DNA from: Lachnospiraceae bacterium
GTDB lineage: Bacteria; Bacillota; Clostridia; Lachnospirales; Lachnospiraceae
NCBI GenBank assembly: GCA_022766515.1
Contig: JALEPA010000020.1
Span: 1-37,825 of the forward strand
DNA length: 37,825 bases
Direction of reading: 5' to 3'
Of this stretch, positions 21,957-37,083 are shown piece after piece. Under the pieces are notes generated by a model. It saw only the letters and a program-made list of their open reading frames with translations, searched no databases and was not told the DNA's origin. The first letter of the stretch is position 1. Every line of letters begins with the position of its first letter. The position numbers and the translations under genes are program-made.

Positions 21957-22147
21957 CTATTTATTAATCCATATAGCCCAAAATGCCGGTTCCTGAATTT
22001 TGACGCCTAGCAGAAGCTAGGTGGGTCACCGCATACAAGATTTTGTCTTCCTCTGCAAACGAAGGCCTGACATCCACTTATAAATATAGGAATCCCAATT
22101 CAAAAGTGTAGGTTCAAAATATCAGAAGTTGTCGTACATTCCAGGTA
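21930..22147 (-). ncRNA. Structured non-coding RNA candidate, possibly 6S RNA (SsrS)
   Basis: Own promoter (TTGTAT-17-TATACT), closing stem CUGAUAUUUUGA/UCAAAAUUCAG, internal hairpin CCUAGC-uucu-GCUAGG flanked by UGAC/GUCA, strong terminator GAGCGTTAgcaaTAACGCTC then TTATTTT; no ORF. Confidence 0.55.
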
Positions 22148-22153
22148 CTATTA

Positions 22154-24542: not shown

Positions 24543-24608
24543 AATATTTATGGCAAACCTTTGACATCTTTCTGCCATTTCTCTCTTTTACAATCTTACC
24601 ATACAAAA

Positions 24609-24786
24609 GAGCAAAACCAGCGTTTTGCTCTGCAAGAATTGCGAAAGAAATTCTTGGTGGCATAACACCACATTATGAGCAATTTCCTATTTAGGAACAA
24701 AAGAGCAAAACCAGCGTTTTGCTCTGCAAGAATTGCTTTCACAATTCTTGGTGGTATATTTATAAGCAATTTCCTATTTAGGAACA
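24609..24786. repeat. Two tandem copies (94-bp period) of the dispersed multi-hairpin repeat
   Basis: GAGCAAAACCAGCGTTTTGCTCTGCAAGAATTGC...ATTCTTGGTGG...AGCAATTTCCTATTTAGGAACAAA at 24609 and again from 24703. Confidence 0.9.
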
Positions 24787-24844
24787 AAGCTATCTTTTCG
24801 GCTTCTTATAGAAGCCAATTTTCAACCAACGAAAGGAGATCGCT

Positions 24845-27759: not shown

Positions 27760-27954
27760 TTTTCCTTCCTTTCCAAGCTGTCCACTTTCTTTTCCTTATC
27801 ATACTCCCTGCAGACATTCCAAAAAAGTCTATACAATACGCCATTTTCTTTCCTTGTTCGACTTTTATTTTTTTGCTATAATCGAATGATTAAGAGCTTG
27901 ATGAACAATTTTTGTCAAAGATTAGTTTGCCAAACAAAGAAAGGTGGAATTGAA

Positions 27955-28572
27955 ATGCAGACAAACGAAGAACCACATTTACCGCTGCCACTCGTAACGA
28001 TTGCCTTGGTCGTGATCAATACACTGATCTTCCTCTATACGGATCTGATCTGCGACAACAACAGTGATATTATCCAATCCGGCGGACTCAGCTACCTGTT
28101 CATCACAGAGGATAGACAATGGTACCGCTTTCTCACTTCCATGTTTTTGCACCTGGATCTGGATCACATTTTCAACAACATGGTCGTACTGCTTGCCACA
28201 GGGTATTACCTGGAACATTATCTGGGACATCTCCGCTACGGGATCTTATACTTTTTATCAGGACTTCTTGCAGGTGGTACCTCTATCGTTTATAATATGA
28301 TGTTGAATGACCCGACCATTTCCGTTGGCGCATCAGGAGCTATCTTTGGCTTACTGGGAGGTCTGATCGTTGCCGTAATATCCATAGGCAGACGAACCGG
28401 ACATTATAATCTGTATCAATTGGGAATTATGGTCGTGCTGAATTTATATGCCGGATTTGCCAATCCGCAAGTCGATAATGCAGCACATATCGGTGGTTTA
28501 GTATTTGGCATTATTTTGTGCCTGATCTTGTCCCATAGACATTCCCTCGATATGACGCCTTATGGAGAATAG
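27955..28572 (+). CDS. Rhomboid-family intramembrane serine protease
   Basis: MFLHLDLDHIFNNM, SVGASGAIFGLLGG (GxSG), NAAHIGGLVFG; start at ATG 27955. Confidence 0.93.
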   Translation: MQTNEEPHLPLPLVTIALVVINTLIFLYTDLICDNNSDIIQSGGLSYLFITEDRQWYRFLTSMFLHLDLDHIFNNMVVLLATGYYLEHYLGHLRYGILYFLSGLLAGGTSIVYNMMLNDPTISVGASGAIFGLLGGLIVAVISIGRRTGHYNLYQLGIMVVLNLYAGFANPQVDNAAHIGGLVFGIILCLILSHRHSLDMTPYGE

Positions 28573-28579
28573 TTAAAAA

Positions 28580-28660
28580 GAGCAAAACCAGCGTTTTGCT
28601 CTGCAAGAATTGCTAATGCAATTCTTAATGGTGCTCTATTATACTACGAGCAATTTCTTA
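28580..28660. repeat. Copy of the dispersed multi-hairpin repeat
   Basis: GAGCAAAACCAGCGTTTTGCTCTGCAAGAATTGCTAATGCAATTCTTAATGG...CGAGCAATTTCTTAATAG. Confidence 0.85.
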
Positions 28661-28663
28661 ATA

Positions 28664-28823
28664 GATTAAGGTGTCAAAAGTCCATTTTCATGACGGAGAT
28701 ATTTTTTTGAAGATTTGTGCTACAATATCTTGAGGCGATGCGGCGCATCGTTGATAGATATTGTGGTCAAAGATTCGAGAAAATAGCCCGTCAGGGAAAT
28801 TCAGACCTTTTGACACCTTAATC
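28664..28823. mobile_element. 160-bp MITE-like long imperfect palindrome with ~20-bp terminal inverted repeats
   Basis: GATTAAGGTGTCAAAAGTC ... GACCTTTTGACACCTTAATC termini; nested TGACGG/CCGTCA, ACAATATCT/AGATATTGT, CGATGC/GCATCG; no ORF. Confidence 0.75.
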
Positions 28824-28855
28824 TTAATATAAAAAAAAGAAAGGACGATAGTCAC

Positions 28856-29869
28856 ATGACAAAAGTAAATATCTATTATGGCGGAAGAGGTTTGATCGAA
28901 GACCCTACTATTTCTGTCATGAATAAGATTACGCAGGTATTAAACGAATTAAATGTCGTGGTACAACGATACAACCTGTATGAGGAGAAAAAAGGAATTA
29001 CGGCACTTCCCAAAACGCTGAAAGAGGCGGATGCCATCATTCTCGCTGCCTCCGTCGAATGGTTCGGCGTTGGCGGATTGTTACAGCAGTTTTTGGATGC
29101 CTGTTGGCTTTACGGTGACAAGGACACCATTCATTCACTTCATATGATGCCGGTCGTTCTTTCGACCACTTATGGCGAAAAGGATTCCTACACTTACCTG
29201 ACGAAAGCGTGGGATATTCTCGGTGGATTGACTTGTGACGGTATTCATGCCTTTGTAAAAGATGCCTTAGAATTTGAAAACAATGCCGGCTACAATGGCG
29301 TGATCGAGAAACGCGTGGAGGATTTTTTCCGATGCTTTACCGGCAAATTAAGCACTTTGCCATCAAGCGACAATGCCGTACGCGATACGGTATCCAGACC
29401 AACGAGCATTGATCTGACTCCGCAAGAAAGCGAACAGCTTTCGGAATATGTATCTAACGACACTTATGTCAAGAAACAAAAAGAAGATATTCAGGAGCTT
29501 AGCGCGATTTTCCGAAATATTCTCGGTGATGAGGCACCGGAAGGCAGCACACAGAGCAATCCTTATGCGCAGGCATTTTCGAGCCATTTTCATGGCATGG
29601 CAGATATTGCCGTCTGCTTCGCACTGGAACTAACCGATATCGAGCAAACTCTCTATCTGTACGCAGACGGACAAACACTCCACTGCTCCGATGTTGCTGC
29701 TCAGGTACCGGATCCTAATGTATCCATCAAGCTGAAAACAGCTTTATTAGATAAGATCACAACCGGACAGACCACCCTGCAGGAAGCATTCCGCCAAGGC
29801 GATGTGATTGCCAAGGGAGATTTTAAGATCTTAGGAAACTTTGACCATCTGTTTCGGTTTCACAATTAA
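28856..29869 (+). CDS. Flavodoxin-like NAD(P)H oxidoreductase domain fused to SCP2 sterol-carrier domain
   Basis: N-terminus VNIYYGGRGLIEDPTISVMNKI...DAIILAASVEWFGVGGLLQQFLDAC; C-terminus LYLYADGQTLHCSDVAAQVPDPNVSIKL...ITTGQTTLQEAFRQGDVIAKGDFKIL typical of SCP2. Confidence 0.8.
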   Translation: MTKVNIYYGGRGLIEDPTISVMNKITQVLNELNVVVQRYNLYEEKKGITALPKTLKEADAIILAASVEWFGVGGLLQQFLDACWLYGDKDTIHSLHMMPVVLSTTYGEKDSYTYLTKAWDILGGLTCDGIHAFVKDALEFENNAGYNGVIEKRVEDFFRCFTGKLSTLPSSDNAVRDTVSRPTSIDLTPQESEQLSEYVSNDTYVKKQKEDIQELSAIFRNILGDEAPEGSTQSNPYAQAFSSHFHGMADIAVCFALELTDIEQTLYLYADGQTLHCSDVAAQVPDPNVSIKLKTALLDKITTGQTTLQEAFRQGDVIAKGDFKILGNFDHLFRFHN

Positions 29870-36959: not shown

Positions 36960-36968
36960 AGTATACAA

Positions 36969-37083
36969 GAGCAAAGCCCGCGCTTTGCTCTGCAAGAATT
37001 GCTTTCGCAATTCTTGGTGATATATCACTACACTATGGGCAATTTTCTATATAATGCACAAGAGCAAAGCCCGCGCTTTGCTC
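36969..37083. repeat. Copy of the dispersed multi-hairpin repeat with its leading palindrome duplicated at the far end
   Basis: GAGCAAAGCCCGCGCTTTGCTC at 36969 and again at 37062; middle GCAAGAATTGCTTTCGCAATTCTTG. Confidence 0.85.

Follow-up and report, generated by a model that had tools for sequence, protein, structure and literature searches.

A dispersed 160-bp palindrome of Lachnospiraceae, very probably a MITE moved by an IS1182-like transposase

Introduction

The intergenic region between a rhomboid-family gene and a flavodoxin-SCP2 gene of a Lachnospiraceae bacterium (assembly GCA_022766515.1, contig JALEPA010000020.1) contains a 160-bp palindrome that folds almost end to end. The question raised by this locus is whether such a palindrome is a mobile element or a functional RNA in the leader of the downstream gene, the two readings given in a preliminary description made from the sequence. 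We analysed the palindrome within a contig stretch of 37,825 nucleotides (the window), in the rest of the draft genome and in other genomes of the family. The palindrome is very probably a dispersed non-autonomous MITE moved by an IS1182-like transposase, which would explain widespread Lachnospiraceae palindromes that could pass for regulatory RNAs.

Results

Structure of the palindrome

The palindrome spans exactly the 160 bp first described (Table 1), and its arms, end-to-end pairing and predicted fold all agree with that description. The outer arms (28663-28680 and 28807-28824) pair perfectly for 18 nt, so that the terminal inverted repeats, given earlier as 20 bp, are indeed present but are perfect for only 17-18 bp, beyond which comes one unpaired G. 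The inner arms (28722-28742 and 28744-28764) are 76% complementary, and pairing of the 160 nt from end to end gives 65 Watson-Crick and 7 G.T pairs among 78 aligned positions (72/78 pairable). Positions 28655-28832 are predicted to fold with free energies of -83.2 and -61.5 kcal/mol on the + and - strands (z -11.9 and -9.2, respectively), values reached by none of 200 shuffles in either case. As first noted, the palindrome has no coding content, the overlapping ORFs being of chance size only (at most 55 aa). An Rfam scan of the window left the palindrome unmatched, the sole match being a 6S RNA gene elsewhere (21971-22150, - strand, RF00013, 84 bits). No T-tract was found downstream of the hairpin, no terminator was called at the site, and searches of plasmid and phage collections gave no match to the palindrome.

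Table 1 Features of the palindrome and its surroundings (window positions; a dot marks features given without a strand)
Feature	Position	Strand	Basis
Rhomboid-family membrane protein gene, upstream neighbour	27886..28572	+	ORF annotation
D1 interspersed repeat copy, not part of the MITE	28573..28664	+	Repeat search
Left target-site duplication TTAATA (CTTAATA including base 28657)	28658..28663	+	Sequence; 7-bp duplications of the family
Palindromic element with IS1182-type ends, very probably a MITE	28664..28823	.	Arms, fold, dispersal, shared ends, family duplications
Left terminal inverted repeat GATTAAGGTGTCAAAAG	28664..28680	+	Arm search; 17-mer common to full-length IS1182-like ends
Subterminal motif TTGTGC, 52 nt from left end	28715..28720	+	Motif comparison with IS and MITE relatives
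Central inverted repeat ACAATATCTTGAGGCGATGCG / CGCATCGTTGATAGATATTGT, hairpin tip	28722..28764	.	Arm search, fold
Right terminal inverted repeat, GATTAAGGTGTCAAAAG on the - strand	28807..28823	-	Arms, terminal matches, IS ends
Right target-site duplication TTAATA	28824..28829	+	Sequence; a 7-bp copy would need one missing C
Flavodoxin-like/SCP2 protein gene, downstream neighbour	28856..29869	+	ORF annotation, orthologue comparison

Copies in the host genome and in relatives

Occurrence as a single copy would have counted against a MITE. Homology to the palindrome was found at 14 distinct places in the draft genome of the host, ranging from near-complete copies (97 and 94% identity) to fragments, and the terminal 16-mer (allowing up to two mismatches) gave 33 matches compared with one for a reversed-pattern control. 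Many of these matches fall between genes, at elements that are whole, internally deleted or single-ended; some are probably chance matches within genes. The host copies are thus intact, shortened or decayed, and copies of the element also adjoin unrelated genes. Some have been reduced to hairpins of 37-72 bp.

Three 160-bp copies were present in one genome of the same genus (G006) and one in another (G019), with identities of 85-88%, and other species of the genus contained fragments. A further genome (G025) has numerous elements that share these ends but differ in the interior (65, 143, 238 and 274 bp); the 238-bp MITE-like element (L121, 366-603) has tandem GGCAATCTGCC-type units within one arm. 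Across the sampled family, the exact terminal 17-mer was found in 25 of 397 genomes and the control in none. Two further observations are given here. A 120-bp palindromic relative flanked by CATATAA duplications lies on a contig classed as viral (IMGVR_UViG_2563367179_000002; L264, 1570-1689). A 1491-bp stretch in G317 (L147, 27-1517) is bounded by MITE-like ends whose subterminal inverted repeats TATTTTTCAAGGCAAAATGAC are longer, and encloses a 355-aa ORF that is not evidently a transposase; no 7-bp duplication was seen, and the stretch is perhaps a cargo-bearing relative.

Autonomous relatives have the same ends

A 1049-bp element with the same ends (L148, genome G346) encodes the N-terminal part of a transposase, and scanning of bacterial genomes with this partial protein gave full-length elements. 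Three of these from Lachnospiraceae, L191 (1860 bp), L192 (1854 bp) and L194 (1871 bp), have transposase ORFs of 535-550 aa between GATTAGGGTGTCAAAAG ends, one end of L191 having a single mismatch. The autonomous transposon called for in the preliminary description therefore exists in the family: the full-length elements and the MITE share the 17-bp ends GATTARGGTGTCAAAAG, in which position 6 is A or G. Two of the three full-length elements are flanked by 7-bp duplications (CTTATAG/CTTATAG for L192 and TTTATAG/TTTATAG for L194). Deletion derivatives of 1049 bp (L148) and 652 bp (L149), which retain the same ends and 7-bp duplications, bridge IS and MITE.

The transposases match DUF772 and DDE_Tnp_1_6 above the Pfam cut-offs, and their best NCBIfam match is IS1182 (NF033551) over nearly the full length of the model. 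As the scores (105-107 bits) fall below the IS1182 equivalog cut-off of 270 bits, the proteins form a divergent branch for which IS1182-like is the safe name; NCBIfam IS5 models also match, weakly. Two other IS1182-like elements, L184 (1374-3225, genome G025) and L185 (genome G227), have different ends (GATGCTGGGGTCAAAAG and GATGTTGGGG, respectively) and apparent 7-bp flanking repeats (ATGTCAT and ATATAAT). Given these flanks despite the other ends, 7 bp may be general for the branch.

The draft genome of the host has no such IS1182-type transposase, only a weak IS1182-like fragment (28 bits), and thus we infer the partner element. The host may hold stranded copies, or the draft may have missed the IS, an element type that draft assemblies often lose. 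Note that the sequence common to the MITE interior and the sampled IS ends is only about 20 bp long, and hence the MITE did not arise from the sampled ISs simply by internal deletion.

An inner motif

In 21 of the 38 ends examined (IS and MITE relatives) the motif TTGYRC was located 38-53 nt inward, compared with 2.7% of shuffles. Six genomes have TTTGCACA at this distance (a 51-nt match), whereas TTTGTACCTTGAAAA takes its place in the ISs whose transposases lie between the shared outer ends. A pattern search of 27 genomes for a partner IS having the MITE-like inner motif gave mostly known short MITEs, with no recognised IS among the loci inspected. The outer ends plus the inner motif suggest a putative two-part transposase-binding site, a post hoc comparison in which the ends are not independent of one another.

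Target-site duplication and target preference

Exact 7-bp duplications, seen at many MITEs as well as at L192 and L194, flank 15 of 33 distinct element pairs, compared with 0.28 expected from cross-pairs (mixed flanks). Duplications of 4, 5, 8, 9 or 10 bp were not found in the 33 pairs, and the window copy is one of two cases with 6 bp. The TA duplication expected in the preliminary description is therefore not what this family makes. The window copy is flanked by TTAATA, which judging from its flanks was probably 7 bp originally, with one C since lost. The motif TTTCCTATA was matched at seven or more of nine positions by 20 of the 33 insertions compared with 3.6% of control positions, the motif having been read off the same 33 insertions that were then counted. 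Insertions thus show an apparent preference for AT-rich TTTCCTATA-like sites.

The insertion site

The palindrome abuts a copy of another repeat, D1, and lies upstream of the flavodoxin-SCP2 ORF, as the preliminary description had placed it; 32 nt separate its end from that ORF. D1 and the MITE occupy the 283-nt gap that divides the rhomboid gene from the flavodoxin-SCP2 gene. The two genes are adjacent in 25 same-genus relatives, where they are -14 to 143 nt apart, often overlapping, and both the palindrome and D1 are absent from all 25 junctions. Among the genomes examined only this one has D1 and the MITE separating the gene pair. The element is therefore missing from the orthologous sites, although the empty sites compared belong to other species and lack D1 as well, so that the exact pre-insertion sequence was not seen.

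The D1 tail, GAGCAATTTC, forms the immediate left flank of the MITE and resembles the favoured target TTTCCTATA. D1 itself was considered as an insertion target and discarded: it lies within about 150 bp of the element at only 3 of the 29 host loci examined, and thus D1 adjacency is no rule, whereas the TTTCCTATA flank preference is. D1 occurs in the window at 24602-24787, 28573-28664 and 36962-37053 as units of about 90 bp that form hairpins with a GAGCAAAACCAGCGTTTTGCTC core. In the host genome at least 50 matches were listed (40 of 133 candidates scored), often in tandem with a spacing of about 94 bp.

Conservation of the palindrome

When nine copies were aligned, 94% of cells paired and seven pairs had changed on both sides. 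The covariation score exceeded that of every shuffle and of every slid register, the structure being taken from one of the nine aligned sequences. The double changes mostly separate the host subfamily from that of G006 and G019 and hence represent few events. A diverged copy (C96) and a truncated copy (C68) fold much less well.

The G.T mismatches of the window subfamily show a suggestive lean to the + strand (7 vs 1, p 0.07). Unrelated MITE subfamilies are mostly palindromic inside as well (inner self-complementarity z of about 3-8, with two exceptions), and those that are palindromic have no G.T strand bias, A.C being as frequent as G.T per strand. The 7:1 lean was thus not taken as evidence for an RNA. 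As old copies lose pairing and the unrelated subfamilies are unbiased, there is no good sign of RNA selection. The unbiased mismatches argue for a cause that would act at the DNA level (inverted-duplication origin or arm correction) over selection on a transcript.

Discussion

These data fit a MITE best, as first proposed: the element is multi-copy, it has autonomous relatives with identical ends, its family makes 7-bp duplications and it is absent in the 25 relatives. In the mechanism we propose, an IS1182-like DDE transposase acts in trans on the 17-bp ends and would have mobilised the element in this host, probably also using the inner motif about 40-55 nt in as a putative binding site. Insertion at an AT-rich target would have duplicated 7 bp, by which the element would have landed between the rhomboid and flavodoxin-SCP2 genes beside D1. 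Any effect on the downstream gene would be a side-effect of placing a long mRNA hairpin shortly before its start codon.

The alternative raised at the outset, a folded RNA or attenuator in the flavodoxin-SCP2 leader conserved as a regulator of that gene, could draw on the strong predicted + strand hairpin just before the start codon, the + strand lean of the G.T mismatches and the pairs maintained through double changes. However, 25 orthologous leaders lack the palindrome, the genes there nearly touching or overlapping, and the same element is found at unrelated genes. Given also a hairpin with neither T-tract, called terminator nor Rfam match, and unrelated subfamilies free of G.T strand bias, we consider such a regulator very improbable. 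A MITE whose hairpin might have been co-opted in cis, for example for RNase III cleavage or shielding of the start region, deserves more weight but is still unlikely. In its favour, Correia and ERIC offer a precedent for RNA-level effects (PMC10969869, PMC2229807), and the two genes that the insertion separates lie close together in relatives. Against co-option, the insertion is known from one species only, the window copy shows no sign of being better kept than other copies, and the compensated pairs distinguish subfamilies (host vs G006 and G019) rather than loci.

A MITE of another transposon family, either Tc1/IS630 with a TA duplication or IS5-like, is improbable: the duplications are 7 bp rather than TA and the best, near full-length HMM match of the transposase is IS1182, although several bacterial MITEs (Correia, RUP and ERIC) have TA at their termini and the NCBIfam IS5 models do match weakly. 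We give next to no credence to dispersal of a REP/BIME-type element by a RAYT (Y1) transposase, or to a chance or assembly palindrome, since the element has defined ends with target duplications, shares those ends with a DDE transposon and recurs in separately assembled genomes. Its palindromic, intergenic nature and the 37-72 bp hairpins are what such an origin could explain.

With the IS1182-like MITE as the preferred reading, these Lachnospiraceae palindromes are tied to a transposon that has defined ends, duplicates 7 bp and prefers certain targets, and the locus is an example of a MITE that separates two closely spaced genes. The question raised is why the MITEs remain palindromic although their interiors differ. 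In Lachnospiraceae one set of IS1182-type ends would have been joined repeatedly to unrelated near-perfect palindromic interiors, with most subfamilies palindromic and the palindrome persisting through double changes (the seven pairs above). The hairpin, as DNA, might therefore be needed for, or made by, transposition (e.g., by a hairpin or template-switch step) rather than being an accident of origin, a conjecture that we think doubtful.

Among other palindromic repeats, the Correia/NEMIS elements of Neisseria and ERIC of enterobacteria are also about 105-160 bp, intergenic and bounded by terminal inverted repeats, and give a long stem-loop in transcripts. They differ in their TA termini and origin, and RNA processing, which has been shown for them, would be a possibility in the Lachnospiraceae element. 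QMITE2 of Coxiella, with its many truncated copies, and the Rickettsia palindromic elements have other ends and hosts, and the Rickettsia elements lie within genes whereas the 160-bp element is intergenic. IS1272 of Staphylococcus, an IS1182 family member like the inferred partner, inserts by replacing an inverted repeat, without duplicating its target (PMC5678879). Transposition of this type is contradicted by the 7-bp duplications of the Lachnospiraceae group. Our literature search found no report of IS1182 MITEs in Lachnospiraceae. The closest precedent is Methanosarcina acetivorans, in which IS1182-family MITEs of 160 bp (14 copies) and 169 bp (7 copies) have ISMac2 as partner (PMC3852290). 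These resemble the present element in transposase family, size, lack of autonomy and terminal inverted repeats. They differ in their archaeal host and, in a comparison made by table rather than by sequence, in repeat sizes (columns read as 25-26 and 0-4 bp) versus the 17-bp ends and 7-bp duplications seen here. IS1182 MITEs are thus already known, and the Lachnospiraceae element is one of the ordinary kind that adds a few new details.
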